This document shows, piece by piece, positions 6,152-32,389 of a stretch of 64,000 nucleotides of DNA. Below the pieces are notes generated by a model. That model ran no database searches. It saw only the letters and a program-made list of their open reading frames with translations, and had not been told where the DNA came from. Every line of letters starts with the position of its first letter. Within the stretch, counting starts at the first letter, position 1. Made by a program: the position numbers and the translations under genes. This stretch comes from Opitutus sp. (GTDB lineage Bacteria > Verrucomicrobiota > Verrucomicrobiia > Opitutales > Opitutaceae), in contig JACEUQ010000001.1 in the NCBI GenBank assembly GCA_024998815.1, positions 806,001 through 870,000 on the forward strand. Direction: 5' to 3'.

Positions 6152-6158
6152 GGCGTGC

Positions 6159-6929: not shown

Positions 6930-7021
6930 TTTAATTAATTTTGATGGAGTTGAGAATCATCGGTAGAAAATCGGGGAGGAAAATAATGAGGGACGGCTAG
7001 CCAGCAAAGAATGAGGCTAAA

Positions 7022-9313
7022 TTAACACTGCGGCGATAAATACATGATCTGGGCCAATAGTTCTTGGCTGCTCTCTTTCCACGTCAACCATTTTAAATTT
7101 TCAGACTTTGGGTGACACCCCATCGAATAAAGCGAAAGCCAGTCTTCAATCGAGGAAGCGATACCTTCGATCGATCTACTATTGAAATAATGCACATGGT
7201 CACCTGCAACTTCACGAAACACCCTGATGTCTCGCGCAATTACAGGCATTTTCTTCTGGGCTGCCTCAACAATAGGAAGCCCAAAGCCTTCATCATAAGA
7301 GGCAGCTATTAAACAAGTCGCATTCGAATATATTAACTCAAGAAATTCATCACTTACATTAGTGAGGTGATGAAAGTGCTGCCCCAACTCGGGATGCGCT
7401 TTAACTGAAAGCATCAGCGAGTTAACCGACCACCCGGTATTTCCGATAAAAACAAGATTAATATCATGACGTTTAGCCCACAGTAAACTGAATGCGGCAA
7501 GAATATCGGCGTGCCCTTTTCTCGGTTCGAGCATCCCGACCATGATAAAAGTAGGCGCAGATTTTATTTTTTCAATAAACTTAACGGCATCTGGAGGAAC
7601 GCCTGCGCTGGGAATTGAGTTCTTAATATCCGAACCCAGGCGAAAAGAACCCAGAAGAGGAACTGCCCCCCCAAGAGGGACATTCGAAGCAAACCAAGCC
7701 GACAAATTACACTTAACGGTATTCGAGATACAAATCATGAAATCGGCTGAGCGGGACGCACTTTTCAGCCAATCAATAAATGCGGAATGCGTCTCAGCGG
7801 GGAAAAAATGAGGATAATGAATTGGAAGGATGTCATAGGCGATAAACCCAACAGAGACCCTGGCGGCACGAAGTTTATTATACAAACCAGCCCGCTCGGC
7901 CTGCACAACCAACCCCCCGGTCAAGTCGGCGACAAGATAGACGTCACCAGCCTGAAAAGTGACCAACGTGTCTTCTATGACGGCCCTAGCGGCCCCTTCC
8001 GTACTTACAAGCAACCAATTATTCGCCTGTTTGTAGTGCCAATAATAACCGTCTCCGGCCTGGTATATTGGAACAACGGTAAAACCATGTTCGGTCGAAT
8101 TCATTAATTCGTGCGTGAGGGCACGAACAACCCGTTGAATTCCTGTCTTATAGTCATTATGACAAGTAATGGAAACATCAATAAACAAAGATTTAGGCCT
8201 CCGCTCACCTTCATTAATATTAAAAGGTTCCGGATCGACATTTGTCGGACGTGTATTATCAATCGCAGAAATGGAATTGTCGGGCCTTTGGTCGCGCCCC
8301 CAAACAAGAGTCTTTAATGCGCGCCCCAAATGAACAAACACAGGGGCCTTCCGAAACGTCGTAATATCAACCACACTCCGATACAAATGGGTGTGCCAAG
8401 GTACATTTAAATCATGGTACGTCCGCCAAACCTGTTTATCGCGAAACTCTTTCAACGCAAAATCGAAACGCTGAATCGACTGATTCAAAAGAACATTGAA
8501 CTGTTTTTGTTCGGCGATGGTGACATTAAGTGTTTGGAGCAAAACCTTACCCTCCAATATTGCCGCAATGTTTTTATCCTCATACCGCAACGCCATTGAA
8601 ACCACGTCAAAACCAGAATTTCCAGATAAAATCGCATTAAACTCATATTCCGTTAAACCCATTGCCGTTTTTTGGGCAATAATGGCATAGTCTGCACTTG
8701 AGCCAATAAGAACATCAATAAGTGTTGGCGCCCCCGCAATGGCGTTATTACTGCTGGCCTGCAATCTCAATAATTTAACCCGACTAAAGCCATGATATTC
8801 ACATAAAAATGAAAGTAGATTCGGCGGGATCGGTTTTACGTGTGTAGGGTCGAGATGGAAAGTATGCGCACCGACATTAAGATTCTCAGGATTGGGCGTT
8901 TCGAGTATTAGCAGGCCACCGGGCAAAAGAGCCTTGAGCGCATCAGCAATCAACGACTGAAGTTTCTCGAAACTAATATGCTCAACGACATGAAGTGCTG
9001 AAATAATCGCATGACTGCTAGGGGCTAAATTCTTTAAATAATCCAGCGCATCCCCATTTTTAGTAGGCAACCCGTGCTCAATACAGGCAGAAAGCATACC
9101 TTCATCTTGATCAATGCCGAGTGGGCTAAAGCCTGATTCTTGGAGCAGTTCCAACCACTCACCTCGACCACACCCTAGATCTAACGCACTGGAACCGGGA
9201 TAAAGTATATTTATCGACGCGAGGAGGGGGCGGTATACCTCCAATCGAGCTTTAACCGTTTCGCGTGAACCACGAAAACGCTCTTCAAATGCTCGGTAAA
9301 AGTTTTTATCCAT
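7022..9313 (-). CDS. SAM methyltransferase - family 4 glycosyltransferase fusion
   Basis: Residues 1 to about 210 form a class I methyltransferase with motif I LDLGCGRGEWLELL (44-57) and the later ALLPGGLLILETPNPENL. A helical linker (about 245-310) follows. Residues about 370-763 form a GT-B glycosyltransferase with an N-terminal DVSITCHNDYKTGIQRVV segment, GMLEPRKGHADILAAF, and the nucleotide-sugar motif DEGFGLPIVEAA. The gene is clearly more AT-rich than its surroundings, a sign of separate origin. It ends upstream of rfbF and starts 23 bp after wzt. A methyltransferase beside a Wzt with a C-terminal domain suggests that it caps or terminates the O-chain; this is an inference. Confidence 0.85.
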   Translation of the reverse strand: MDKNFYRAFEERFRGSRETVKARLEVYRPLLASINILYPGSSALDLGCGRGEWLELLQESGFSPLGIDQDEGMLSACIEHGLPTKNGDALDYLKNLAPSSHAIISALHVVEHISFEKLQSLIADALKALLPGGLLILETPNPENLNVGAHTFHLDPTHVKPIPPNLLSFLCEYHGFSRVKLLRLQASSNNAIAGAPTLIDVLIGSSADYAIIAQKTAMGLTEYEFNAILSGNSGFDVVSMALRYEDKNIAAILEGKVLLQTLNVTIAEQKQFNVLLNQSIQRFDFALKEFRDKQVWRTYHDLNVPWHTHLYRSVVDITTFRKAPVFVHLGRALKTLVWGRDQRPDNSISAIDNTRPTNVDPEPFNINEGERRPKSLFIDVSITCHNDYKTGIQRVVRALTHELMNSTEHGFTVVPIYQAGDGYYWHYKQANNWLLVSTEGAARAVIEDTLVTFQAGDVYLVADLTGGLVVQAERAGLYNKLRAARVSVGFIAYDILPIHYPHFFPAETHSAFIDWLKSASRSADFMICISNTVKCNLSAWFASNVPLGGAVPLLGSFRLGSDIKNSIPSAGVPPDAVKFIEKIKSAPTFIMVGMLEPRKGHADILAAFSLLWAKRHDINLVFIGNTGWSVNSLMLSVKAHPELGQHFHHLTNVSDEFLELIYSNATCLIAASYDEGFGLPIVEAAQKKMPVIARDIRVFREVAGDHVHYFNSRSIEGIASSIEDWLSLYSMGCHPKSENLKWLTWKESSQELLAQIMYLSPQC

Positions 9314-9336
9314 AAAACAAGATTCTCGCGCAAATA

Positions 9337-10638
9337 TTAAAGCTTTATTGCCGAAAAGCTACAGGGCAAAGACACACAACCAACAAAGTTCCTGCCATTT
9401 TGTGGGATAATCTGAAAAATTAAAGCATGATCAATCCAATCGTAACTTTCCCCAAGGTGGTCACGCTCGGAGTGTAGTGCTGCAGTGAGTGAATATGACC
9501 CAATGCCTAAACTTAACTCAATTTGTATATCAATTTGCAGCCTCGATCCTGCCTGTGTTTCAGGCAGGGGTTGTTTTTGGTTAAAAGTATTGGTGCCAAA
9601 AATATCCATTCCAAGTCGGTCACGAATTAAAATACCGAGGGTCGGACAGACAATTTTTTCATTAAAAGTGACCGTGCAACGAATCGTTGCTCTAGCCCCA
9701 CTGGTAAAACAAAGAGTCGGCCGCTCTTTATCATCGAAAATAACGATCGATTCGATGAATGCCTTACCATTACCCGACCTTGTTTTCATTTTCCCCGCTT
9801 CACCTTGTTGTTGAACAATCAACATGCCGTCTTGTTTCTTGGCAATCAATGAATTATAATAATCCAGCACGGAATCAGCCGGGCCATCTTTAATAATAAC
9901 ACCCTGATCAAGTAGAATGGCTCGACTACAAATCAACTTAACGGCGCCCGGATCATGAGACACAAACAGTAGCGTGCCACCTTGCTCCTTAAATTGGCGT
10001 ATGCGAGCGACACATTTATGCTGAAAGTAGGCGTCACCTACCGCCAATGCTTCATCAACAATCAATATATCGGGATCAACTTGGGATATAGCTGAAAACG
10101 CCAGTCGCACTACCATACCGCTTGAATAAGTTCTGACTGGTTGGTCAATAAACTCAGCCAGTTCCGAGAAGCTAATGATCGACTCTAAACGTTTATCGAT
10201 TTCATCTTTTGAAAGCCCGAGTACCGCGCAATTAAGGTAAATGTTTTCGCGCCCGGAGAATTCAGGATTAAATCCGCTACCGAGTTCAAGTAGAGCTGCG
10301 ATTCGGCCTTGAGTGGAGGCATGCCCATTGGTGGGTGAGAGGGTGCCAGCTAATATCTGCAATAGAGTCGATTTCCCTGATCCATTCATACCAATGATGC
10401 CCAGCGCTTCGCCTTTTTTGACTTCAATGGAGACGTCCTTGAGTGCGTAGAAGTCCTTGTAATAAGGGCTTAAACTGTACGCTGGGAGCTTGGAGCTGTT
10501 AGCTCCTATCTTCAGTCTCTTAGCTATAAACTTCTGCCATGTGCTCCAGAGCGGTGCTTTGAGCCGGGCTGCTGGGTCGCGCCAGATGCGGTAGGCCTTG
10601 CTAACGTTTATGACTGAAATTGCGATGTCGTCTGACAT
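9337..10638 (-). CDS. wzt: O-antigen ABC exporter ATPase with carbohydrate-binding C-terminal domain
   Basis: It powers export of undecaprenyl-linked O-antigen together with Wzm. Walker A is GMNGSGKST, the signature is YSSGM and Walker B is DILIVDEAL with a downstream FVSHD. Residues about 290-433 form a Wzt_C-like beta domain that in this family reads a terminal modification of the glycan. I chose ATG 10638 (MSDDIAISV) over GTG 10653 because three decayed copies of this gene start at the equivalent position. Residues 38-53 (IGANSSKLPAYSL) are a translated heptad insertion just before the conserved FYALKDVS. The partner wzm lies 21 kb away. Confidence 0.92.
   Translation of the reverse strand: MSDDIAISVINVSKAYRIWRDPAARLKAPLWSTWQKFIAKRLKIGANSSKLPAYSLSPYYKDFYALKDVSIEVKKGEALGIIGMNGSGKSTLLQILAGTLSPTNGHASTQGRIAALLELGSGFNPEFSGRENIYLNCAVLGLSKDEIDKRLESIISFSELAEFIDQPVRTYSSGMVVRLAFSAISQVDPDILIVDEALAVGDAYFQHKCVARIRQFKEQGGTLLFVSHDPGAVKLICSRAILLDQGVIIKDGPADSVLDYYNSLIAKKQDGMLIVQQQGEAGKMKTRSGNGKAFIESIVIFDDKERPTLCFTSGARATIRCTVTFNEKIVCPTLGILIRDRLGMDIFGTNTFNQKQPLPETQAGSRLQIDIQIELSLGIGSYSLTAALHSERDHLGESYDWIDHALIFQIIPQNGRNFVGCVSLPCSFSAIKL
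10481..10526. repeat. Converging GAGCT array inside wzt
   Basis: GCTGGGAGCTTGGAGCTG runs into TTAGCTCC and TCTTAGCT, a short hairpin of the same converging type as the intergenic arrays. It is in frame in the linker before the ATPase core. Confidence 0.85.
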
Positions 10639-10841
10639 TGATTTATTTACCACGAAGAAAGGCTGGCAGAAACTAAGAAGTTAGGAATTTTGCCCACGAA
10701 ATTCACGAAATGAAACGAAAAAGGGGAAATGGGAAACCGGATTTTTAACCGCTAATGGGCGCTAATTGTCGCTAATGGTTTGGATCTAACCACTACCCGC
10801 TACTCAGTACTCGCTACTGATTAGTTCGCCTGGAATGCACA
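10639..10841. other. Gene-free spacer with short repeat families
   Basis: It contains a 'CCCACGAAATTCACGAAATG' type segment, a TAACCGCTAATGGGCGCTAA segment, and TACTCGCTACTG pentads repeated elsewhere in the island (12.2, 12.3, 19.7 kb). No gene or clear promoter was recognised. Confidence 0.6.
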
Positions 10842-12154
10842 GGTTCTTCCCGTTTTGTTGTGGGTTCGGGCATAAAAGCAGCTAAAAAGTAAAGATGAGC
10901 ATAAGCGCACATGAACATTACCGGCGGTTGCTGTTGCTGCCGGAACCGTGGGAAGTAACCAAAGTGGAGGAAGACATTCTCGGACTAAACGTGACGGTCT
11001 GGTTACGATGGCCAGACGGGGCCAAGGTGCCGTGCCCAGTGTGCGGTCAGTTGATGCCTATTTACGACCGAATGAAGGAGCGGAGTTGGCGTCACCGTGA
11101 TGTGATGCAATATCGACTCGAACTGCGGTGCGCGGTGCCCCGCTGCGATTGCGAGGAGCATGGTGTTAAAACGATGCACGTGCCGTGGGCCGAACCAGGC
11201 TCGCGGTTCACCTCGCTTTTTGAAAGCTTTGCCGTGGCCGTGATCGCCTCTAGCCGATCGCTAAGCCAAGCCGCCGAGTTGCTGGGACTTCATTGGGATA
11301 GTGTACAACGTATAATCGATCAGGCTGTTGAGCGAGGCTTGGCGCGGCGAAACCTCGACGGCATCACCCGAGTTGGCTTAGACGAAAAGAGTTTTTTGCG
11401 CGGTCAAAGCTACGTTTCATTGATGACCGATCTCACCGGTCGGCGGGTACTGGACGTGGTTCCAGGCCGGGATACAGGGAGTGGGTTAAAGCTTTGGGCA
11501 TCATTATCAAAGGAGCAAATTGACGGGATTGAAGCCGTCGCGATGGACATGGGTGCATCCTTCATCGCCGCCACCCACCAGGCCGCGCCCAACGCTGACA
11601 TCGTTCACGACCGCTTTCATGTTTCAAAGCCTATGAACGAGGCGGTCGATCATACCCGCCGGGATGAGGCCGCTGAACTCGCTGCCAAAGGCGATGACAT
11701 CTTAAAACGCACTCGCTTTCTTTGGCTGCATGGCATCGTTCCTGATGACCGCAAAGAGCACTTCGAGGCGCTGCTGGAGTCCAATCTTCGTACGGCCAAG
11801 GCATGGGCTTATAAAGAGCAGCTGGTCGAGTTTTGGGGACAACCCAACGCCGATGCGGGTAATACTTTCTTCCAGCTGTGGTATCGCTCGGTTATGAGTA
11901 GCCGCCTGCCCAGAGTCAAAAAAGTAGCAAAGTCACTAAAAGCCCATCTGGCCGGATTACTGACTTACTTTAAGCACCGTATTTCGAATGCACTCACCGA
12001 GGGTTTTAATTCAAAAATCCAAGCAATTAAAGCCGATGCTCGTGGCTTCCGTAAGTTCGAAAACTATCGCACCCGTATTCTTTTCTTTTGTGGTAAACTC
12101 GACCTCGAGCCTAATTTCCCCCCAGCCCTAACCCACAGTATTCCGTGAAGAACC
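10842..12154 (+). mobile_element. ISL3-family IS, copy 1 (1313 bp)
   Basis: The ends are GGTTCTTCCCG on the left and the inverse of GGTTCTTCACGG on the right. The flanking 8-bp target duplication is AATGCACA (10834-10841 and 12155-12162), the size expected for ISL3. It lies in an intergenic spacer. Confidence 0.96.
10895..12148 (+). CDS. ISL3-family transposase, copy 1
   Basis: This 417-residue transposase has an N-terminal zinc-ribbon (CPVCGQ) and a second Cys cluster CAVPRCDCEEHG, a helix-turn-helix region around SLSQAAELLGLHWDSV, and a DDE core: GLDEKSFLRG, AMDMGASF, and a C-terminal Glu in ALTEGFNSKIQ. It is identical in sequence to the three other copies in the window, so the spread is recent. 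Confidence 0.96.
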   Translation: MSISAHEHYRRLLLLPEPWEVTKVEEDILGLNVTVWLRWPDGAKVPCPVCGQLMPIYDRMKERSWRHRDVMQYRLELRCAVPRCDCEEHGVKTMHVPWAEPGSRFTSLFESFAVAVIASSRSLSQAAELLGLHWDSVQRIIDQAVERGLARRNLDGITRVGLDEKSFLRGQSYVSLMTDLTGRRVLDVVPGRDTGSGLKLWASLSKEQIDGIEAVAMDMGASFIAATHQAAPNADIVHDRFHVSKPMNEAVDHTRRDEAAELAAKGDDILKRTRFLWLHGIVPDDRKEHFEALLESNLRTAKAWAYKEQLVEFWGQPNADAGNTFFQLWYRSVMSSRLPRVKKVAKSLKAHLAGLLTYFKHRISNALTEGFNSKIQAIKADARGFRKFENYRTRILFFCGKLDLEPNFPPALTHSIP

Positions 12155-12679: not shown

Positions 12680-13992
12680 GGTTCTTCACGGAATACTGTG
12701 GGTTAGGGCTGGGGGGAAATTAGGCTCGAGGTCGAGTTTACCACAAAAGAAAAGAATACGGGTGCGATAGTTTTCGAACTTACGGAAGCCACGAGCATCG
12801 GCTTTAATTGCTTGGATTTTTGAATTAAAACCCTCGGTGAGTGCATTCGAAATACGGTGCTTAAAGTAAGTCAGTAATCCGGCCAGATGGGCTTTTAGTG
12901 ACTTTGCTACTTTTTTGACTCTGGGCAGGCGGCTACTCATAACCGAGCGATACCACAGCTGGAAGAAAGTATTACCCGCATCGGCGTTGGGTTGTCCCCA
13001 AAACTCGACCAGCTGCTCTTTATAAGCCCATGCCTTGGCCGTACGAAGATTGGACTCCAGCAGCGCCTCGAAGTGCTCTTTGCGGTCATCAGGAACGATG
13101 CCATGCAGCCAAAGAAAGCGAGTGCGTTTTAAGATGTCATCGCCTTTGGCAGCGAGTTCAGCGGCCTCATCCCGGCGGGTATGATCGACCGCCTCGTTCA
13201 TAGGCTTTGAAACATGAAAGCGGTCGTGAACGATGTCAGCGTTGGGCGCGGCCTGGTGGGTGGCGGCGATGAAGGATGCACCCATGTCCATCGCGACGGC
13301 TTCAATCCCGTCAATTTGCTCCTTTGATAATGATGCCCAAAGCTTTAACCCACTCCCTGTATCCCGGCCTGGAACCACGTCCAGTACCCGCCGACCGGTG
13401 AGATCGGTCATCAATGAAACGTAGCTTTGACCGCGCAAAAAACTCTTTTCGTCTAAGCCAACTCGGGTGATGCCGTCGAGGTTTCGCCGCGCCAAGCCTC
13501 GCTCAACAGCCTGATCGATTATACGTTGTACACTATCCCAATGAAGTCCCAGCAACTCGGCGGCTTGGCTTAGCGATCGGCTAGAGGCGATCACGGCCAC
13601 GGCAAAGCTTTCAAAAAGCGAGGTGAACCGCGAGCCTGGTTCGGCCCACGGCACGTGCATCGTTTTAACACCATGCTCCTCGCAATCGCAGCGGGGCACC
13701 GCGCACCGCAGTTCGAGTCGATATTGCATCACATCACGGTGACGCCAACTCCGCTCCTTCATTCGGTCGTAAATAGGCATCAACTGACCGCACACTGGGC
13801 ACGGCACCTTGGCCCCGTCTGGCCATCGTAACCAGACCGTCACGTTTAGTCCGAGAATGTCTTCCTCCACTTTGGTTACTTCCCACGGTTCCGGCAGCAA
13901 CAGCAACCGCCGGTAATGTTCATGTGCGCTTATGCTCATCTTTACTTTTTAGCTGCTTTTATGCCCGAACCCACAACAAAACGGGAAGAACC
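12680..13992 (-). mobile_element. ISL3-family IS, copy 2 (in KilA-N)
   Basis: It is 1313 bp long and inverted relative to copy 1. The 8-bp target duplication is TGTGCCAA at 12672-12679 and 13993-14000. Confidence 0.96.
12686..13939 (-). CDS. ISL3-family transposase, copy 2
   Basis: The 417 residues are identical to copy 1 (same zinc-binding N-terminus and DDE core). The frame is intact. Confidence 0.96.
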   Translation of the reverse strand: MSISAHEHYRRLLLLPEPWEVTKVEEDILGLNVTVWLRWPDGAKVPCPVCGQLMPIYDRMKERSWRHRDVMQYRLELRCAVPRCDCEEHGVKTMHVPWAEPGSRFTSLFESFAVAVIASSRSLSQAAELLGLHWDSVQRIIDQAVERGLARRNLDGITRVGLDEKSFLRGQSYVSLMTDLTGRRVLDVVPGRDTGSGLKLWASLSKEQIDGIEAVAMDMGASFIAATHQAAPNADIVHDRFHVSKPMNEAVDHTRRDEAAELAAKGDDILKRTRFLWLHGIVPDDRKEHFEALLESNLRTAKAWAYKEQLVEFWGQPNADAGNTFFQLWYRSVMSSRLPRVKKVAKSLKAHLAGLLTYFKHRISNALTEGFNSKIQAIKADARGFRKFENYRTRILFFCGKLDLEPNFPPALTHSIP

Positions 13993-14006: not shown

Positions 14007-15319
14007 GGTTCTTCACGGAATACTGTGGGTTAGGGCTGGGGGGAAATTAGGCTCGAGGTCGAGTTTACCACAAAAGAAAAGAATACGGGTGCGATAGTTT
14101 TCGAACTTACGGAAGCCACGAGCATCGGCTTTAATTGCTTGGATTTTTGAATTAAAACCCTCGGTGAGTGCATTCGAAATACGGTGCTTAAAGTAAGTCA
14201 GTAATCCGGCCAGATGGGCTTTTAGTGACTTTGCTACTTTTTTGACTCTGGGCAGGCGGCTACTCATAACCGAGCGATACCACAGCTGGAAGAAAGTATT
14301 ACCCGCATCGGCGTTGGGTTGTCCCCAAAACTCGACCAGCTGCTCTTTATAAGCCCATGCCTTGGCCGTACGAAGATTGGACTCCAGCAGCGCCTCGAAG
14401 TGCTCTTTGCGGTCATCAGGAACGATGCCATGCAGCCAAAGAAAGCGAGTGCGTTTTAAGATGTCATCGCCTTTGGCAGCGAGTTCAGCGGCCTCATCCC
14501 GGCGGGTATGATCGACCGCCTCGTTCATAGGCTTTGAAACATGAAAGCGGTCGTGAACGATGTCAGCGTTGGGCGCGGCCTGGTGGGTGGCGGCGATGAA
14601 GGATGCACCCATGTCCATCGCGACGGCTTCAATCCCGTCAATTTGCTCCTTTGATAATGATGCCCAAAGCTTTAACCCACTCCCTGTATCCCGGCCTGGA
14701 ACCACGTCCAGTACCCGCCGACCGGTGAGATCGGTCATCAATGAAACGTAGCTTTGACCGCGCAAAAAACTCTTTTCGTCTAAGCCAACTCGGGTGATGC
14801 CGTCGAGGTTTCGCCGCGCCAAGCCTCGCTCAACAGCCTGATCGATTATACGTTGTACACTATCCCAATGAAGTCCCAGCAACTCGGCGGCTTGGCTTAG
14901 CGATCGGCTAGAGGCGATCACGGCCACGGCAAAGCTTTCAAAAAGCGAGGTGAACCGCGAGCCTGGTTCGGCCCACGGCACGTGCATCGTTTTAACACCA
15001 TGCTCCTCGCAATCGCAGCGGGGCACCGCGCACCGCAGTTCGAGTCGATATTGCATCACATCACGGTGACGCCAACTCCGCTCCTTCATTCGGTCGTAAA
15101 TAGGCATCAACTGACCGCACACTGGGCACGGCACCTTGGCCCCGTCTGGCCATCGTAACCAGACCGTCACGTTTAGTCCGAGAATGTCTTCCTCCACTTT
15201 GGTTACTTCCCACGGTTCCGGCAGCAACAGCAACCGCCGGTAATGTTCATGTGCGCTTATGCTCATCTTTACTTTTTAGCTGCTTTTATGCCCGAACCCA
15301 CAACAAAACGGGAAGAACC
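14007..15319 (-). mobile_element. ISL3-family IS, copy 3 (in KilA-N)
   Basis: It is 1313 bp long and in the same direction as copy 2, only 14 bp away. The target duplication is AAAGAGAG at 13999-14006 and 15320-15327. It shares two A bases with the target of copy 2, so the second insertion hit the edge of the first. Confidence 0.96.
14013..15266 (-). CDS. ISL3-family transposase, copy 3
   Basis: The 417 residues are identical to the other copies. The frame is intact. Confidence 0.96.
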   Translation of the reverse strand: MSISAHEHYRRLLLLPEPWEVTKVEEDILGLNVTVWLRWPDGAKVPCPVCGQLMPIYDRMKERSWRHRDVMQYRLELRCAVPRCDCEEHGVKTMHVPWAEPGSRFTSLFESFAVAVIASSRSLSQAAELLGLHWDSVQRIIDQAVERGLARRNLDGITRVGLDEKSFLRGQSYVSLMTDLTGRRVLDVVPGRDTGSGLKLWASLSKEQIDGIEAVAMDMGASFIAATHQAAPNADIVHDRFHVSKPMNEAVDHTRRDEAAELAAKGDDILKRTRFLWLHGIVPDDRKEHFEALLESNLRTAKAWAYKEQLVEFWGQPNADAGNTFFQLWYRSVMSSRLPRVKKVAKSLKAHLAGLLTYFKHRISNALTEGFNSKIQAIKADARGFRKFENYRTRILFFCGKLDLEPNFPPALTHSIP

Positions 15320-22287: not shown

Positions 22288-23402
22288 GTGCTTACTTGCA
22301 ATAATAAGTGATATTGTATCCGCTTTGTAGATGGGACGAAAAGCCGTGCGAATCACTTGTAGCGAGGGGGATCAGCAATCCCTAGAAAAACGGGCAACCA
22401 GCCGGATTGAGTCGAGGCAGCGAGTTGAGCGCGCCCGGATGATCCTTGGGTGCGTGAGTGGCGAGCAGGTGCAAGAGGTGGCGCGCCGCTGCAACACCAG
22501 GCCGAACACCGTAATAAAGTGGAGGGATCGCTTTGTGCTGCTTGGCATGAAGGGGCTGGATGATGCGGCACGGCCGGGCGCGAAGCGCACCTACGGTGAG
22601 GACTTTCGAGATCGGGTGCTGGCTTTATTGGAAGGGCCACCCCCTCCGGGGCAGGCGCGCTGGGATGGTCCAGCGGTGGCCCGTGTGCTCGGCGGCTCGG
22701 TGCACGCGGTCTGGCGAGTGCTGCGCAAGGAGGGCATTTGCCTGCAGCGCCAGCGCTCGTGGTGCGTGAGCACTGACAAGCAGTTCGCAGCCAAGGCAGC
22801 CGATATCGTCGGGCTCTACCTGAGCCCACCGGAAAAGGCATTGGTGATAAGTGTGGATGAAAAGCCTGGCATCCAAGCCCTAGAGCGCGCCACCGGTTAC
22901 GTGGAGACCGACAATGGTAAAATCGTCCAGGGACTCAAAAGCACCTACAAGCGCCACGGTACACTCAACTTGTTCGCTGCCCTTGATGTGGCCACGGGCT
23001 TGATCAAGACGCAGAAAACCACCCTTAAGCGCCGGGAGGAGTTCCTGCTGTTCATGGACCAAGTGGTGGCGGATCACCCGCCCGAGAGAGAACTCCACGT
23101 GATTTTGGATAATTATTGCACCCACAAAAAGTGCGACGCTTGGCTCGCTCGGCACCCCAATGTCCACTTCCACTTTACCCCAACCTCGGCGAGTTGGCTC
23201 AATCAAGTTGAAATCTGGTTCGGCATACTAACAAGGAAGGCGCTACGGGGCGCGAACTTCAGAAGCGTCGCCGAACTTAGTCAGGCCATTGACGCTTTCG
23301 TCGCCGCCTACCTGCCCAATGCCAAGCCGTTCAAGTGGCGCAAGCGCGAGGTCAAGGGAAGCCAACTCAGAAATACTATCATTAATCTACGCAATTAAGC
23401 AC
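22288..23402 (+). mobile_element. IS630-family IS, copy 1 (1115 bp)
   Basis: The ends are GTGCTTACTTGC and the inverse of GTGCTTAATTGC. The target dinucleotide TA is duplicated (22286-22287 and 23403-23404). The insertion point is CTAG inside GAGCT repeat sequence. Confidence 0.95.
22331..23398 (+). CDS. IS630-family transposase, copy 1
   Basis: The 355 residues have an N-terminal helix-turn-helix (VQEVARRCNTRPNTVIKWRD) and a winged segment, then the IS630 DDE core: ISVDEKPGIQ, HVILDNYCTHK and ASWLNQVEIWFG. Both copies in the window are identical. Confidence 0.96.
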   Translation: MGRKAVRITCSEGDQQSLEKRATSRIESRQRVERARMILGCVSGEQVQEVARRCNTRPNTVIKWRDRFVLLGMKGLDDAARPGAKRTYGEDFRDRVLALLEGPPPPGQARWDGPAVARVLGGSVHAVWRVLRKEGICLQRQRSWCVSTDKQFAAKAADIVGLYLSPPEKALVISVDEKPGIQALERATGYVETDNGKIVQGLKSTYKRHGTLNLFAALDVATGLIKTQKTTLKRREEFLLFMDQVVADHPPERELHVILDNYCTHKKCDAWLARHPNVHFHFTPTSASWLNQVEIWFGILTRKALRGANFRSVAELSQAIDAFVAAYLPNAKPFKWRKREVKGSQLRNTIINLRN

Positions 23403-25201: not shown

Positions 25202-26272
25202 TTAACGGCCCAACCGTTCTAGTTTATATCCACCGCTTAAGATATTCGCGGTCCACTCGTTGTTATCTAAATACCACTGCACCGTTTTACGGAATCCGGA
25301 GGTGTGGTCTTGTTTCGGAATCCAGCCTAATTCAGTTTTGATCTTGGTAGCATCTATCGCGTACCTCAGATCATGCCCGGGACGGTCTTTCACAAAGGTG
25401 ATCTGCTCGGCATAGCTTTTTCCATCAGCGCGGGGTCGGAGTTCGTCTAGGAGAGTACTGAGTAATCGGACTAGGTCGATGTTTTGGCGTTCGTTATTTC
25501 CACCTATATTGTACGTTTGTCCAATTCGTCCTTTGGCTATAACCGTATGCAGGGCTTCGGCGTGATCGCCAACATACAGCCAGTCGCGGATGTTTTCGCC
25601 TTTGCCGTACACCGGGATCGGCTCACCACGCAGGGCTTTGAGGATAACCACCGGGATGAGCTTTTCCGGGAACTGATACGGGCCGTAATTATTGGAGCAG
25701 TTGGTCACCAATACAGGCAGTTTATAGGTGTCAGCCCAAGCCCGGGCGAGGTGATCGCTTGCCGCTTTGCTCGCCGAATAGGGGGAATGCGGGTCGTAGG
25801 GAGTTTCTTCGGTGAACAGGCCCTCGACGCCTAAGCTTCCGTAAACTTCGTCGGTGGAGACGTGCAGGAACCTGAAACGGTCCTGCGCGGATCCGGTTAG
25901 GCTTTCGTAATGGGCGCGGGCAGCTTGTAGTAGGGTAAAGGTGCCGGTGATGTTGGTTTGGATGAAGGCGCCGGGGCCGTCGATGGAGCGGTCAACGTGG
26001 CTTTCAGCGGCGAGGTGCATGACCCAGTCGGGTTGGAACTCGGCGAAGAGGCGGGCCATTGCGGGGGCATCGCAGATGTCGGCTTGAGTGAAGCGGTAAC
26101 GCGGGTGGGATTGAATATCCGCTAAGGAGTGGACATTACCTGCATAGGTGAGCGCGTCGACGTTGAGAACCGAGCTGGGAGCTAGGAGCTGGGAGCTAGG
26201 AGCTTGCGTCAGCAGGTGCCGAACAAGGTTGGAGCCGATAAAACCAGCTCCTCCGGTGACTAGAATTTTCAT
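25202..26272 (-). CDS. rmlB: dTDP-glucose 4,6-dehydratase
   Basis: It makes dTDP-4-keto-6-deoxyglucose for rhamnose-type sugars. Extended [17 protein letters not shown] at the N-terminus, [24 protein letters not shown] and [11 protein letters not shown] with Tyr-x3-Lys, [14 protein letters not shown]. Length is 356 residues, family-typical apart from residues 23-34 ([13 protein letters not shown]), a translated GAGCT-heptad insertion between the first helix and [11 protein letters not shown]. It belongs with rmlA (30.4 kb) and the NRS/ER-like gene (28.2 kb). Confidence 0.95.
26171..26203. repeat. GAGCT heptads inside rmlB
   Basis: Five units (GAGCTGG, GAGCTAG and so on) add about 11 in-frame codons after the first alpha helix of RmlB. 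Confidence 0.88.
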
Positions 26273-26291
26273 GAATACAGATTCGGAATTT

Positions 26292-26368
26292 TTAACCGCG
26301 AAGTACGCGAAGGGGCACGAAGTTTAGAAAGGTCGGACTTAGCGAGACTTGGCGTTCTTCGCGGTTAA
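26292..26368. repeat. AACCGCGAAG palindromic element
   Basis: TTAACCGCGAAGTACGCGAA at the left is mirrored by CTTCGCGGTTAA at the right, about 77 bp in all. Related copies lie at 28128, 31403 and 31502. Confidence 0.85.
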
Positions 26369-26593
26369 CAAATCCTTTATCTAGGCCTTCAAGTGCGATT
26401 AGTTCAGCCATGGGAGAGAATAATACGTTCCCATTCAAGGCGGCCATGAGATCCGAAATTGACAAGTAGGCCGATCTGAAGGCCTGTGACTTTTAAATAA
26501 TTGATGACTTGCGCCCGATGCTCTTCAGCCAGCGATTTTGCAGCTTTGAGTTCAACGATGATTTTATCATAACACAACAAGTCTGGAGTGTAG

Positions 26594-27906
26594 GGTTCTT
26601 CCCGTTTTGTTGTGGGTTCGGGCATAAAAGCAGCTAAAAAGTAAAGATGAGCATAAGCGCACATGAACATTACCGGCGGTTGCTGTTGCTGCCGGAACCG
26701 TGGGAAGTAACCAAAGTGGAGGAAGACATTCTCGGACTAAACGTGACGGTCTGGTTACGATGGCCAGACGGGGCCAAGGTGCCGTGCCCAGTGTGCGGTC
26801 AGTTGATGCCTATTTACGACCGAATGAAGGAGCGGAGTTGGCGTCACCGTGATGTGATGCAATATCGACTCGAACTGCGGTGCGCGGTGCCCCGCTGCGA
26901 TTGCGAGGAGCATGGTGTTAAAACGATGCACGTGCCGTGGGCCGAACCAGGCTCGCGGTTCACCTCGCTTTTTGAAAGCTTTGCCGTGGCCGTGATCGCC
27001 TCTAGCCGATCGCTAAGCCAAGCCGCCGAGTTGCTGGGACTTCATTGGGATAGTGTACAACGTATAATCGATCAGGCTGTTGAGCGAGGCTTGGCGCGGC
27101 GAAACCTCGACGGCATCACCCGAGTTGGCTTAGACGAAAAGAGTTTTTTGCGCGGTCAAAGCTACGTTTCATTGATGACCGATCTCACCGGTCGGCGGGT
27201 ACTGGACGTGGTTCCAGGCCGGGATACAGGGAGTGGGTTAAAGCTTTGGGCATCATTATCAAAGGAGCAAATTGACGGGATTGAAGCCGTCGCGATGGAC
27301 ATGGGTGCATCCTTCATCGCCGCCACCCACCAGGCCGCGCCCAACGCTGACATCGTTCACGACCGCTTTCATGTTTCAAAGCCTATGAACGAGGCGGTCG
27401 ATCATACCCGCCGGGATGAGGCCGCTGAACTCGCTGCCAAAGGCGATGACATCTTAAAACGCACTCGCTTTCTTTGGCTGCATGGCATCGTTCCTGATGA
27501 CCGCAAAGAGCACTTCGAGGCGCTGCTGGAGTCCAATCTTCGTACGGCCAAGGCATGGGCTTATAAAGAGCAGCTGGTCGAGTTTTGGGGACAACCCAAC
27601 GCCGATGCGGGTAATACTTTCTTCCAGCTGTGGTATCGCTCGGTTATGAGTAGCCGCCTGCCCAGAGTCAAAAAAGTAGCAAAGTCACTAAAAGCCCATC
27701 TGGCCGGATTACTGACTTACTTTAAGCACCGTATTTCGAATGCACTCACCGAGGGTTTTAATTCAAAAATCCAAGCAATTAAAGCCGATGCTCGTGGCTT
27801 CCGTAAGTTCGAAAACTATCGCACCCGTATTCTTTTCTTTTGTGGTAAACTCGACCTCGAGCCTAATTTCCCCCCAGCCCTAACCCACAGTATTCCGTGA
27901 AGAACC
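26594..27906 (+). mobile_element. ISL3-family IS, copy 4
   Basis: 1313 bp. Target duplication GAGTGTAG at 26586-26593 and 27907-27914. Same direction as copy 1, so recombination between the two would delete about 15.8 kb. Confidence 0.96.
26647..27900 (+). CDS. ISL3-family transposase, copy 4
   Basis: 417 residues identical to copies 1-3. Intact. Confidence 0.96.
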   Translation: MSISAHEHYRRLLLLPEPWEVTKVEEDILGLNVTVWLRWPDGAKVPCPVCGQLMPIYDRMKERSWRHRDVMQYRLELRCAVPRCDCEEHGVKTMHVPWAEPGSRFTSLFESFAVAVIASSRSLSQAAELLGLHWDSVQRIIDQAVERGLARRNLDGITRVGLDEKSFLRGQSYVSLMTDLTGRRVLDVVPGRDTGSGLKLWASLSKEQIDGIEAVAMDMGASFIAATHQAAPNADIVHDRFHVSKPMNEAVDHTRRDEAAELAAKGDDILKRTRFLWLHGIVPDDRKEHFEALLESNLRTAKAWAYKEQLVEFWGQPNADAGNTFFQLWYRSVMSSRLPRVKKVAKSLKAHLAGLLTYFKHRISNALTEGFNSKIQAIKADARGFRKFENYRTRILFFCGKLDLEPNFPPALTHSIP

Positions 27907-28127
27907 GAGTGTAGGTGTGCCTGAGCGTTATGTTGCGATATGTAATTGGGAAGTTACGTTGCGCATCGAATGGGATGCCAAGATGACTGAGTTCAATCTC
28001 CATGCAGTCTTGATAAACGGGCTCCGCGTAACCGTTGCCTTTGTTAGAGTGCACCGCAATACAGGCACCGATGATCTGGAAAACCTCGGTTTTGTAGATA
28101 ATCGGATCGTGCATCGGATCGGACTTT

Positions 28128-28205
28128 TTAACCGCGAAGTTCGCGAAGGGGCACGAAGGTTCGGAGGGATTGGACTTCGCTCAACTTAGCGTACTTCGCT
28201 GTTAA
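28128..28205. repeat. AACCGCGAAG palindromic element supplying a stop codon
   Basis: The left arm is TTAACCGCGAAGTTCGCGAA and the right arm GTACTTCGCTGTTAA. The TAA stop of the reductase gene (28202-28204) lies in the right arm. Confidence 0.82.
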
Positions 28206-29071
28206 ACCTGCTGCCAGTTATGAAGGGCCGATTTGATCGCTTCGCGGACCGGGGCCATCGCAATACCCACTGAGGCCAGTTTCGATGAATTCATCACACA
28301 GTTGCTACGGCGGGCTTTGGCGGCTTTTTGCATGAAATCGGTTTCATCCGTAAAAAACTGATACTCTTTCCGGCACACGCCACTCTCTTGAATTAGCTCA
28401 ACCACTTCGCGGGTGGTCACGTGCCCGGGATTGGTCACATTATAAATCCCAAACGGGACTTTTTTCTCCCAGCAGGCCAGGGTCGAGGTTACAAATTCAT
28501 CCAGTTGCGAGACGCTGTTGGTTGCTTCCAACAGGCTCTGATAACGCATCAACTTGGTCAGATAATTGCGCGGACTTTCGCGGTGATCGAAGGGGATACG
28601 CAAGCGCCAGATGTAGATATTTGGACGTCCGGCGAGGATTTCTTCACCGAGTGCTTTGGTGCCGGAATAAAACGAGCAGTTGTTTTGGCGAAAGGTGAAA
28701 TTAGGTTCGTCTTCTTCTGTAAACCCAGCGCCGTCGGAGCGGGTTCCCGTATATATACAGCCGGAGGAAACGTGGCCCCAGGGGACGCCGGCGGCGGCAC
28801 AGGCTTCGGCGATGCGTCCGGGGAGGATGGCGTTGCCAAAAAGGCAGTTGGTCTTGTCGGTTTCGCAGGCGTCAACGTTGGGTTTCCCGGTGTAACCGGC
28901 GGCGTTGATCAGGAACGATACTTTGTCGGCGCGCAGAGCGGCGGTCAGTGCGGCGGGATTGGCGTAGTCGAGATCGGCGCGGGCGATGCTTTTAAAAGCG
29001 ATGCCTTTGATGGTGAGAAATTGTTGATAGGCCTGGCCGACATAGCCGGAACCGCCGAGAAGATAGATCAT
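28202..29071 (-). CDS. NRS/ER-like dTDP-4-keto-6-deoxyglucose epimerase/reductase
   Basis: This 289-residue SDR begins MIYLLGGSGYVGQAYQQFL. It shares with plant NRS/ER and the C-terminal part of RHM the segments NAAGYTGKPNVDACE, SSGCIYTG, GAGFTEEDEPNFTF, SFYSGTKALGEE, RLRIPFDHRESPRNYLTKL and YNVTNPGHVTTREVVE. Those plant enzymes do both the 3,5-epimerisation and the 4-reduction that yield dTDP-L-rhamnose. No rmlC is seen near rmlA and rmlB, which fits a bifunctional enzyme here. Homology is read by eye; dual activity is inferred. Confidence 0.8.
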   Translation of the reverse strand: MIYLLGGSGYVGQAYQQFLTIKGIAFKSIARADLDYANPAALTAALRADKVSFLINAAGYTGKPNVDACETDKTNCLFGNAILPGRIAEACAAAGVPWGHVSSGCIYTGTRSDGAGFTEEDEPNFTFRQNNCSFYSGTKALGEEILAGRPNIYIWRLRIPFDHRESPRNYLTKLMRYQSLLEATNSVSQLDEFVTSTLACWEKKVPFGIYNVTNPGHVTTREVVELIQESGVCRKEYQFFTDETDFMQKAAKARRSNCVMNSSKLASVGIAMAPVREAIKSALHNWQQV

Positions 29072-29077
29072 GGTGAA

Positions 29078-29210
29078 TGAGCGATGAGCTAGGAGCTGGG
29101 AGCTAAGAGCTTGGAGCTAGGAGCTGGGAGCTAGGAGCTAAGAGCTAGGAGCTAGGAGCTAAGAGCTAGGAGCTGGGAGCTAAGAGCTAGGAGCTGGGAG
29201 CTAAGAGCTA
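29078..29210. repeat. Left-facing GAGCT array
   Basis: About 18 heptads (GAGCTAG, GAGCTGG, GAGCTAA) directly upstream of the NRS/ER-like gene. The IS630 copy 2 is inserted in its last CTAG. The matching right-facing heptads are at 30403-30438 on the other side of the IS. Confidence 0.93.
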
Positions 29211-30325
29211 GTGCTTACTTGCAATAATAAGTGATATTGTATCCGCTTTGTAGATGGGACGAAAAGCCGTGCGAATCACTTGTAGCGAGGGGGATCAGCA
29301 ATCCCTAGAAAAACGGGCAACCAGCCGGATTGAGTCGAGGCAGCGAGTTGAGCGCGCCCGGATGATCCTTGGGTGCGTGAGTGGCGAGCAGGTGCAAGAG
29401 GTGGCGCGCCGCTGCAACACCAGGCCGAACACCGTAATAAAGTGGAGGGATCGCTTTGTGCTGCTTGGCATGAAGGGGCTGGATGATGCGGCACGGCCGG
29501 GCGCGAAGCGCACCTACGGTGAGGACTTTCGAGATCGGGTGCTGGCTTTATTGGAAGGGCCACCCCCTCCGGGGCAGGCGCGCTGGGATGGTCCAGCGGT
29601 GGCCCGTGTGCTCGGCGGCTCGGTGCACGCGGTCTGGCGAGTGCTGCGCAAGGAGGGCATTTGCCTGCAGCGCCAGCGCTCGTGGTGCGTGAGCACTGAC
29701 AAGCAGTTCGCAGCCAAGGCAGCCGATATCGTCGGGCTCTACCTGAGCCCACCGGAAAAGGCATTGGTGATAAGTGTGGATGAAAAGCCTGGCATCCAAG
29801 CCCTAGAGCGCGCCACCGGTTACGTGGAGACCGACAATGGTAAAATCGTCCAGGGACTCAAAAGCACCTACAAGCGCCACGGTACACTCAACTTGTTCGC
29901 TGCCCTTGATGTGGCCACGGGCTTGATCAAGACGCAGAAAACCACCCTTAAGCGCCGGGAGGAGTTCCTGCTGTTCATGGACCAAGTGGTGGCGGATCAC
30001 CCGCCCGAGAGAGAACTCCACGTGATTTTGGATAATTATTGCACCCACAAAAAGTGCGACGCTTGGCTCGCTCGGCACCCCAATGTCCACTTCCACTTTA
30101 CCCCAACCTCGGCGAGTTGGCTCAATCAAGTTGAAATCTGGTTCGGCATACTAACAAGGAAGGCGCTACGGGGCGCGAACTTCAGAAGCGTCGCCGAACT
30201 TAGTCAGGCCATTGACGCTTTCGTCGCCGCCTACCTGCCCAATGCCAAGCCGTTCAAGTGGCGCAAGCGCGAGGTCAAGGGAAGCCAACTCAGAAATACT
30301 ATCATTAATCTACGCAATTAAGCAC
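29211..30325 (+). mobile_element. IS630-family IS, copy 2
   Basis: 1115 bp, flanked by duplicated TA (29209-29210 and 30326-30327) within GAGCTAG repeat sequence. Same direction as copy 1; recombination between them would remove rmlB and the NRS/ER-like gene. Confidence 0.95.
29254..30321 (+). CDS. IS630-family transposase, copy 2
   Basis: 355 residues identical to copy 1. Intact. Confidence 0.96.
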   Translation: MGRKAVRITCSEGDQQSLEKRATSRIESRQRVERARMILGCVSGEQVQEVARRCNTRPNTVIKWRDRFVLLGMKGLDDAARPGAKRTYGEDFRDRVLALLEGPPPPGQARWDGPAVARVLGGSVHAVWRVLRKEGICLQRQRSWCVSTDKQFAAKAADIVGLYLSPPEKALVISVDEKPGIQALERATGYVETDNGKIVQGLKSTYKRHGTLNLFAALDVATGLIKTQKTTLKRREEFLLFMDQVVADHPPERELHVILDNYCTHKKCDAWLARHPNVHFHFTPTSASWLNQVEIWFGILTRKALRGANFRSVAELSQAIDAFVAAYLPNAKPFKWRKREVKGSQLRNTIINLRN

Positions 30326-30435
30326 TAGGAGCTGGGAGCTTCTGGTTTAGGCTAAAGTTTAAGTCTGACTGTATGCTTATTAGTGAGCACGGTCGGTGGT
30401 CATTAGCTCATAGCTGGTAGCTCTAAGCTCCTAGC

Positions 30436-31314
30436 TCATGCAACTAGGTTGCGTAGGTAGGTTCCGTAGTTGGATTTACCTAGGCGCTTGATTTGGGACT
30501 CCAAACCCGCGCGGTCCAGCCAACCTTGGCGGTAACCGATTTCTTCTAAACAGGCTATTTTCAATCCTTGGCGGTTTTCAATCACCGCTACAAATTGTCC
30601 GGCGTCTATCAAACTGTCGTGCGTTCCCGTATCCAACCAGGCCGTGCCTCGACCTAGGAGCTCAACTTGGAGTTGGTTTTTTTCCAAATACAGGCGGTTC
30701 AAATCTGTGATTTCCAGTTCGCCTCGGTGAGAGGGTTTTAGGCTGCGTGCAAGAGCGACCACTTGGGCGTCGTAAAAGTATAAGCCGGGAACGGCGTAGT
30801 TCGACTTGGGTTTTTCAGGCTTTTCCTCCAACGAGAGCACGCGGCCGTCGGGGGCAAACTCGACCACGCCGTAGGCTTTGGGGTCGGCAACATGGTAGCC
30901 GAAGATTGTGGCGCCGGTGGTGGAGGCCGCCGCGGCCATGACCGACTTAGCGAAATCGTGGCCGTAGAAAAGGTTGTCGCCGAGCACGAGCGCGGCCGGT
31001 TCCTCGCGGAGGAAGCCGACGTCGGCTGCGATGGTAAAGGCTTGGGCGAGACCGTCGGGGCTTGGTTGCTCGGCGTAGCTGAGGATTAGGCCGAACTGGC
31101 TGCCGTCGCCGAGTAGGCGTTTGAACAGGGGGAGATCGGCGGGGGTCGAGATGATTAATATTTCCCTAATTCCTCCGAGCATGAGCACGGAGAGGGGATA
31201 ATAAATCATCGGCTTATCATAGATCGGCATCAGTTGTTTACTGATGGCAATAGTCAGCGGATAAAGGCGGGTGCCGGAGCCGCCAGCAAGGACGATGCCT
31301 TTACGGGTTTGCAT
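30436..31314 (-). CDS. rmlA: Glucose-1-phosphate thymidylyltransferase
   Basis: Makes dTDP-glucose from dTTP and glucose-1-phosphate, first step of the rhamnose branch. Signature [20 protein letters not shown], then [32 protein letters not shown] with the metal Asp, and [20 protein letters not shown]. 292 residues is the family length. It is separated from the next rhamnose gene by GAGCT repeats and IS630 copy 2, so the operon is now interrupted. The stop codon TCA/TGA is within a few bases of a right-facing heptad array. Confidence 0.96.
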
Positions 31315-31402
31315 TGTTATACGGTTGTTTAACCGCGAAGTGTGCGAGGTGGCACGCAGGAAAACTGATTACTATCCACGAAATGCACGGATGTAGGAGT
31401 TT

Positions 31403-31590
31403 TTAACCGCGAAGTGCGCGAAGGGGCGCTAAGTTCAGGAGTGGTTGAACTTCGCAAGACTTAGCGTTTTTCGCGGTTAACAAATGCTTTATTTCGTATT
31501 TTTTACCGCTAAGTCGATCCATAGACTCGCTAAGATCGCAATCGGATTCGGTATTATACTTCGCGTATCTTCGCGCACTTCGCGGTTAAT
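31403..31590. repeat. Two AACCGCGAAG palindromic elements in tandem
   Basis: 31403-31480: TTAACCGCGAAGTGCGCGAA ... TTTCGCGGTTAA. 31502-31590: TTTACCGCTAAGTCGATCCA ... CTTCGCGGTTAAT. They fill most of the 280-bp gap between wzm and rmlA; no gene is present. Confidence 0.82.
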
Positions 31591-31597
31591 AATGATT

Positions 31598-32389
31598 TCA
31601 GATTACATCCGCGAAGGCGGGTTTTAGTTTTTTGAAGGTCACTAGACCTACTGCTAGGAGCACCAACCCAAAGGCGAAACTGTAGGCGAGTCCGTGCCAC
31701 TGTAGGGGTTGGTGCCAGAGCAGTACCCCTCGCGCTTGTTCGATGATATGAATCAGGGGGTTGTACTTAATAAAAACCCAGATCGCCGGGGGGATCATAT
31801 TGGCGGAATAAAAGACCGCACTCGCATACATCAATACCATACAGAGGGGGCCTACTGCATATTGGATGTCACGTAAAAAGACGCCTAGGGATGATAAGAT
31901 TAGCGCCGCACCCAGCGCCAAAGGAATGAGGGGTAGAAACGCCACGAAAAAGAGTAGCGAGTGAAAGCTCAGTCCGTTACCGAGGGTCGCCACTCCGAGG
32001 AGGACGAGGATCAAACTGACGCCAAATTGATAAAAGGCGGCGCCTAGATTGGCCAGCGGCAGGATTTCGAGGGGGAAAACTACTTTTTTGACTAGATTGG
32101 GTTGTGCTACAATCGCGGCGGCCGAACTGCTGATTACTTCGGAGATGGTTTGGAAGATGGTGATGCTTAAAAATATTCCGAGTGCGTAATCCATCGTGGA
32201 CTGGTTTTCCACGCCTTTATAGCGGCCTTTAAAGATCAGACCGAAGACGACTGTATAAATAGCCATCATCGCCAGTGGACTGAGCACGCTCCATATCATT
32301 CCCAGTGCACTACCGCGGTGGCGTTGCTCGATCTGGCGCTTGGTGAATTGCCAGAGGAGATAGCGATGCTGGGTGAAAACTTTTAACAT
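31598..32389 (-). CDS. wzm: O-antigen ABC exporter permease
   Basis: ABC-2 type inner-membrane permease that with Wzt moves lipid-linked O-antigen to the periplasm. 263 residues, about six hydrophobic segments, with the N-terminal cytoplasmic QFTKRQIEQRHRGSALGMIW stretch typical of this family, the interface LVKKVVFPLEILPLANL, and the conserved C-terminal YNPLIHIIEQARGVLL. In most genomes wzm and wzt are adjacent; here they lie 21 kb apart with the rml genes, passengers and IS elements in between. Confidence 0.93.
   Translation of the reverse strand: MLKVFTQHRYLLWQFTKRQIEQRHRGSALGMIWSVLSPLAMMAIYTVVFGLIFKGRYKGVENQSTMDYALGIFLSITIFQTISEVISSSAAAIVAQPNLVKKVVFPLEILPLANLGAAFYQFGVSLILVLLGVATLGNGLSFHSLLFFVAFLPLIPLALGAALILSSLGVFLRDIQYAVGPLCMVLMYASAVFYSANMIPPAIWVFIKYNPLIHIIEQARGVLLWHQPLQWHGLAYSFAFGLVLLAVGLVTFKKLKPAFADVI

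Follow-up and report, generated by a model that had tools for sequence, protein, structure and literature searches.

An NRS/ER-type epimerase-reductase that probably replaces RmlC and RmlD in a three-gene dTDP-L-rhamnose route of Opitutus and its relatives

The bacterial route to dTDP-L-rhamnose is given as employing separate RmlC and RmlD enzymes (PMC6556577, PMC9614988), and bacterial RmlCD chimeras are also mentioned (PMC6556577). For the mimivirus enzyme L780, mutagenesis confirmed Cys108 and Lys175 as key catalytic residues (PMC9614988). In 2011, Yin et al. described four homologues from Verrucomicrobia; they also postulated a pre-fusion arrangement of plant RHM and left as a question how and when its epimerase-reductase emerged (PMC3220709).

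The stretch of DNA analysed here, referred to as the window, comprises 64,000 nucleotides of an Opitutus sp. contig (JACEUQ010000001.1). Within it lies a complete, ATG-initiated ORF that coincides exactly with the position listed for ER in Table 1, and for which the original prediction had proposed a plant-type bifunctional rhamnose enzyme in place of both RmlC and RmlD. The genes rmlA, ER and rmlB are co-directional and together span no more than 6.2 kb, two transposase ORFs being interposed; because these ORFs separate the three genes, their joint expression is uncertain. The top PDB match of the window RmlB, 1bxk, is a dTDP-glucose 4,6-dehydratase.

The transposase ORF between rmlA and ER is presumably of the IS630 type, and a further ORF at 22331-23398 encodes the identical protein sequence. 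Three more ORFs of 417 amino acids (10895-12148, 12686-13939 and 14013-15266) have the same length as the ISL3 transposase ORF, to which they were matched on length alone. Inverted repeats with a common TTTAACCGCGAAG-type core are found at 26285-26381, 28121-28206 and 31390-31488, beside rmlB, ER and rmlA, while repeats of the AGCTAGG type flank the transposase gene that separates rmlA from ER, at 29084-29210 on one side and near 30403-30439 on the other. At 5-11 kb, the window encodes a nucleotidyltransferase adjoining an NDP-sugar dehydratase-like protein, as well as a fusion of methyltransferase and glycosyltransferase and a Wzt_C-containing ABC ATPase. We interpret the region as an O-antigen-like cluster that contains several insertion sequences and of which the genes at 5027-10653, including the Wzt-type ATPase, perhaps form a second sugar branch; by its context, the ABC-2 permease upstream of rmlA would be Wzm-like.

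Table 1. Position and basis of assignment of the features discussed, in window coordinates
Feature	Position	Strand	Basis
ER, NRS/ER-type 3,5-epimerase/4-reductase, 289 aa, proposed sole substitute for RmlC and RmlD	28202..29071	-	profile, PDB, model, tree
RmlA, glucose-1-phosphate thymidylyltransferase	30436..31314	-	TIGR01207, 476.7 bits (cut-off 360.65)
RmlB, dTDP-glucose 4,6-dehydratase	25202..26272	-	TIGR01181, 470.9 bits (cut-off 365.1); top PDB match 1bxk
Transposase ORF, DDE_3/HTH_32, between rmlA and ER	29254..30321	+	domain search
ISL3 transposase ORF, between ER and rmlB	26647..27900	+	domain search
ABC-2 transporter permease, next to rmlA on the upstream side; present in L081 as well	31598..32389	-	domain search
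ABC ATPase with Wzt_C domain, O-antigen export context	9337..10653	-	domain search
Cys105 codon (Cys108 of L780; Cys115 of 4qqr)	28757..28759	-	alignment
Tyr135 codon, Tyr of the reductase YxxxK motif	28667..28669	-	alignment
Lys139 codon, Lys of the reductase YxxxK motif	28655..28657	-	alignment
Lys173 codon (Lys175 of L780; Lys183 of 4qqr)	28553..28555	-	alignment

In Pfam, the window ER matches RmlD_sub_bind with 90.6 bits and contains SDR-type domains only, and against the NCBIfam rmlD equivalog TIGR01214 it scores 76.7 bits, below the cut-off of 224.05. A phmmer search of the PDB ranked 4qqr, the 3,5-epimerase/4-reductase NRS/ER of Arabidopsis, at 122 bits and 7jid, the UDP-L-rhamnose synthase L780 of mimivirus, at 74 bits, compared with 36 bits for the best RmlD (4wpg). 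With a profile of 31 sequences, built from the window ER and 30 of 34 homologous loci (L033, L041, L051 and L052 were left out), the corresponding scores were 315, 230 and 85 bits, and GDP-L-fucose synthase reached about 24-35 bits. The AlphaFold model of the protein has a mean pLDDT of 95.3, and Foldseek returned 7jid as its top match (TM-score 0.88) and 4qqr as second by E-value, followed by the RmlDs. Several RmlDs reach TM-scores (0.80-0.82) that 4qqr (0.79-0.81) does not exceed, so the two types cannot be told apart by the fold alone.

A maximum-likelihood tree of 75 rows separated the 44 ER rows without exception from all others by a branch of length 1.94 with 100/100 support, which recurred in 200 of 200 bootstrap trees; the tree is unrooted, lacks L087 (an RmlD over the cut-off), L102 and L109, and has a partial row for 1vl0. 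The ER side comprises the window protein, 30 other prokaryotic and 11 IMG/VR proteins, 4qqr and 7jid, and the opposite side holds 15 RmlD rows and 16 RmlD-like or MAT2B-like rows. Two subgroups make up the ER side. The plant and mimivirus enzymes fall into one of 11 rows (100/93), together with proteins from Chlamydiae, Dependentiae, Lokiarchaeota and candidate phyla and one unassigned bacterial protein, and the window ER falls into the other, of 33 rows (99/96), with proteins of Verrucomicrobiota, one row titled Planctomycetota, and viral proteins. The original prediction had held that the protein is nearer to NRS/ER, the C-terminal half of RHM, than to RmlD, and had proposed a phylogeny with both; judged by the phmmer ranking, the equivalog score and the tree, its assignment as a bacterial NRS/ER-type protein is confirmed as far as sequence comparison reaches. 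The label "plant-type" holds as a description of the family, but not as a statement of plant origin, and a recent plant-to-bacterium transfer was dropped, since the window ER lies outside the plant branch, in a branch that is sister to it in the unrooted tree.

The active-site residues distinguish the two types further. In the aligned 7jid chain, Cys108 and Lys175 of L780 are numbered 111 and 178, a three-residue shift that is taken to be due to a tag, and the pair aligns with Cys105 and Lys173 of the window ER. The equivalent Cys115 and Lys183 of 4qqr we take to be catalytic as well. Among 144 ER copies, which are not all independent (they include L055, which is the window's own locus, and the apparent same-genome pairs L019/L053 and L022/L058), Cys105 and Lys173 are each conserved in 143, with a Gly in L038 and one alignment gap, respectively; Tyr135 is found in all 144 and Lys139 in 141, the three exceptions being candidate-phylum copies (L044, L049 and L050) in which Arg replaces the lysine of YxxxK. 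The L038 copy (L038:6273-7211), whose catalytic Cys is replaced by Gly, is possibly a reductase only.

By comparison, the 14 clear RmlD rows (11 from the family and three from the PDB) have Tyr in the Cys105 column and Thr in the Lys173 column, while YxxxK is common to both types. The window ER can therefore be described as having the RmlD reductase motif plus an extra pair of residues. In a further 17 RmlD-like or MAT2B-like rows, Cys was never present at 105 and Lys was present at 173 in five; L095, an RmlD just over the cut-off (228.8 bits) with Gly and Ala in these columns, was counted among the 17 and not the 14.

That no rmlC is seen, as the original prediction had noted for the window, extends to the whole assembly: its 4.24 Mb in three contigs (99.93% complete) gave no PF00908 match, in a search that was positive in 11 of 14 control genomes. 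PF04321 gave 18 matches in this genome, the strongest being L001, and no RmlD over the NCBIfam cut-off was found, L001 again being the sole TIGR01214 match at an E-value of 1e-40 or better. L001 (L001:1501-2430) was rejected as a true RmlD, given its 144 bits against the cut-off of 224.05, a best PDB match to MAT2B and a MAT2B-like position in the tree, where ten other proteins of the family join it. Thus neither an rmlC elsewhere in the genome nor an RmlD position for the window protein, which together would have spoken against the proposal, was found.

Across 150 genomes of the family, ER (E-value 1e-30 or better) was present in 111, RmlC in 24, RmlD over the cut-off in 13 and RmlA over the cut-off in 127. 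ER and RmlC occur together in ten genomes, ER without RmlC in 101, RmlC without ER in 14, and neither in 25, nine of which have RmlA (odds ratio 0.18, Fisher p 2.4e-4). RmlD over the cut-off was found in one of the 111 ER genomes (G041) against 12 of the 39 others (p 2.4e-7), and all 13 RmlD genomes have RmlC; RmlA was found in 105 of the 111 against 22 of the 39 (p 1.7e-7), leaving six ER genomes with no RmlA at the threshold used. ER carriers in the family are almost exclusive of RmlD over the cut-off and are depleted of RmlC. These Fisher tests ignore the relatedness of the genomes, a point answered only in part by five genera (g7, g11, g15, g17 and g40) that, read by eye from listings, hold genomes of both types and no genome with both ER and RmlD over the cut-off. 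Such mixed genera suggest repeated exchange of the ER and RmlD types.

Among the ten genomes with both ER and RmlC, the PF00908 match is weak in G041 (34 bits), whose RmlD lies just over the cut-off, and is in two pieces in G038. The ER match contains an internal stop in G087 and is partial in G070, G114 and G142. G019 has ER matches at four places and G006 at two, and second matches occur at L037:13133-14044 and at L043:11168-11995. At the level of the phylum, 30 of 240 genomes have ER and 162 have RmlC, with an overlap of five that was likewise read by eye (p 1.1e-9). Named loci gave access to another 16 genomes, of which two have RmlC, namely those that contain L035 (a weak match) and L042; no RmlC was found in Verrucomicrobia bacterium IMCC26134, the source of L022, whose genome is titled complete.

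Of the 105 genomes that have RmlA as well as ER, 97 encode the two no more than 6 kb apart and without exception on one strand; in the remaining eight, the two genes are on different contigs in seven and 1.1 Mb apart in G075. In 95 of the 97, rmlA is downstream of ER, the median gap over the 97 being 1.2 kb, and where loci were read this gap contains rmlB. Of 53 verrucomicrobial ER loci, a count that includes the window and the apparent same-genome pairs L019/L053 and L022/L058, rmlB is present in 47, with the order ER-rmlB-rmlA in 22 and ER-rmlB within short flanks in 15. Twelve RmlD loci (L083-L094) have the order rmlC-rmlD-rmlB in 11 and rmlC-rmlD only in L085, with rmlA visible in four. 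As either rmlC-rmlD or ER stands ahead of rmlB, ER occupies, in terms of gene order, the operon position that rmlC-rmlD has in other genomes. The three-gene route of RmlA, RmlB and an NRS/ER-like protein that had been suggested for the window thereby gains support at the level of genomes, as a conserved cluster of the family in whose carriers RmlD over the cut-off is nearly absent and RmlC is depleted.

The order rmlA-ER-rmlB of the window itself is unusual, as rmlA is upstream of ER in only two of the 97 genomes, that of the window and G118. The latter belongs to another genus, and its locus L081 has rmlA-ER-rmlB and the ABC permease, with 80-88% identity to the window proteins; about 22 bases separate rmlA from ER and about 620 separate ER from rmlB, which leaves no room for either transposase gene. 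In G041, which is of the same genus as the window's genome, ER and rmlB are adjacent (L070). We infer that the rmlA-ER-rmlB cassette was exchanged within the family and that the mobile elements were inserted later.

Taken together, the window gene is very probably a bacterial nucleotide-rhamnose epimerase-reductase that replaces RmlC and RmlD in a three-gene dTDP-L-rhamnose route. In this route, RmlA would make dTDP-glucose, which RmlB would convert to dTDP-4-keto-6-deoxyglucose, and ER, a single SDR enzyme, would perform both remaining steps. Cys105 and Lys173 would invert C3 and C5, and the apparatus of NAD(P)H, Tyr135 and Lys139 would then reduce the C4 ketone to give dTDP-L-rhamnose, probably destined for the O-antigen of a Wzm/Wzt-type cluster. 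We infer this activity because the catalytic residues are conserved and because the gene replaces two others; the enzyme would combine both activities, employ this cofactor, favour a dTDP over a UDP substrate, and yield a product of L-rhamno configuration for use in O-antigen.

A divergent RmlD that carries out C4 reduction only, leaving 3,5-epimerisation to an unrecognised epimerase, would fit the Pfam RmlD_sub_bind match and the TM-scores of up to 0.82 that RmlD structures reach with the model, and a 3,5-epimerase unrelated to PF00908 may be present. Yet the equivalog score is far under its cut-off, the tree splits the protein from RmlD at 100/100, its Cys and Lys are absent from the 14 clear RmlD rows, and the genome has no PF00908, so that we regard a divergent RmlD as quite improbable. 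It is improbable, too, that the enzyme is bifunctional with a different stereochemistry, giving for example dTDP-6-deoxy-L-talose or, as a 3- or 5-only epimerase/reductase, another 6-deoxyhexose. While the configuration of the product is unreadable from sequence, and the giant-virus protein Mg535 is a C3-only epimerase and reductase (PMC9614988), ER holds the operon position taken by rmlC and rmlD in genomes of the same genera, and its nearest solved relatives are rhamnose synthases. Finally, the route might run on UDP-sugars, as it does in plants, and lead to UDP-L-rhamnose, in which case RmlA would have another function. L780 accepts substrates of both kinds, UDP- and dTDP-linked, with higher efficiency on the former (PMC9614988); however, the regular presence of RmlA in ER genomes (105 of 111), in 97 of which it is co-directional with ER at a distance of at most 6 kb, and the closeness of the window RmlB to dTDP-glucose 4,6-dehydratases make a UDP route very improbable indeed. 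The preferred reading remains a bifunctional enzyme acting on the dTDP-sugar.

Relatives of ER are also encoded by viruses, with at least 572 ER-encoding stretches in a scan of IMG/VR. In the best 80 of these (L113-L192), RmlA flanks ER in 53 and RmlB in 44, with the order rmlA-ER-rmlB in 33. Searches by tblastn, for which the family supplied the queries, found neither RmlC nor RmlD beside ER in these 80 loci; as a single RmlC query was used, a divergent viral RmlC could be missed, and PF00908 was absent from nine ORFs of L131. Among ten neighbour proteins from four of these contigs, one each in L114 and L131 matches the clamp-loader family and one in L114 a deoxynucleoside monophosphate kinase family, suggesting that these two contigs may derive from T4-like phages; in L137, one neighbour gives a match to transposase families. 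We dropped the idea that ER originated in a described phage, as INPHARED holds one weak relative (26.6% identity) and the viral relatives are in IMG/VR.

In other phyla, ER is found in a different company. In six of 11 loci (L042, L043, L044, L048, L050 and L051 among L042-L052, a set drawn from a scan with a bias in favour of the window ER), ER is preceded on its own strand by a dehydratase match at a distance of about 50 to 490 bases, and this order of dehydratase and ER is the domain order of plant RHM. In L046, the dehydratase match is on the opposite strand from ER. The dehydratase stands directly upstream of a plant-like ER at L042:8799-10828 (Chlamydiae), L043:5331-7305 (Dependentiae) and L048:8876-10756 (an unassigned bacterium), and the ER of L046 (Chlamydiae) shares 60% identity with 4qqr. 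A tentative scenario, which we hold to be possible though rather doubtful, is that the epimerase-reductase arose in prokaryotes and phages within the dTDP-rhamnose operon and entered eukaryotes from there, that the dehydratase-ER pairs of Chlamydiae, Dependentiae and candidate phyla descend from the pre-fusion arrangement, and that T4-like phages spread rmlA-ER-rmlB.

The window bacterium and most sampled genomes of its family thus appear to finish rhamnose with one enzyme, of a type known from plants and giant viruses. A family that mostly uses ER risks being annotated as RmlD-bearing yet lacking rhamnose, since rmlC is missing. Moreover, the prokaryotic ER branch, the operon and the phage cassettes provide concrete proteins with which to address nucleotide preference and the ancestry of the plant-type enzyme. 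No report of the operon, of the replacement of RmlC and RmlD in bacteria, or of the phage cassettes was found in the literature searched, which mostly excluded subscription papers; this is weak evidence of novelty.

Of the systems known so far, Arabidopsis NRS/ER (UER) is, like the C-terminal domain of plant RHM, a single-domain epimerase-reductase that belongs to the same clade as the window ER and has the same Cys/Lys/YxxxK set. The plant pathway, however, starts at UDP-glucose (PMC6556577), whereas the partners of the window ER are RmlA and a dTDP-type RmlB, and ER itself lies in the sister branch. Mimivirus L780 (UGER) is the best fold match, and both of its reported catalytic residues align with those of the window protein, but it is a giant-virus enzyme that is paired with R141 and has a higher efficiency with the UDP substrate (PMC9614988). 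GDP-L-fucose synthase, too, is an epimerase-reductase of the SDR type and has a catalytic Cys (PMC9614988), although it is distant from ER in sequence. The RmlCD fusions of Prymnesium parvum resemble ER in that one polypeptide serves both steps (PMC6556577), yet they contain an RmlC part, unlike the window ER with its SDR-type domains alone. The bacterial pair of RmlC and RmlD shares with ER the proposed metabolic step and the operon position, and RmlD has the SDR fold as well, but these are two proteins, one of them in PF00908, and the Cys and Lys of ER correspond to Tyr and Thr in RmlD.
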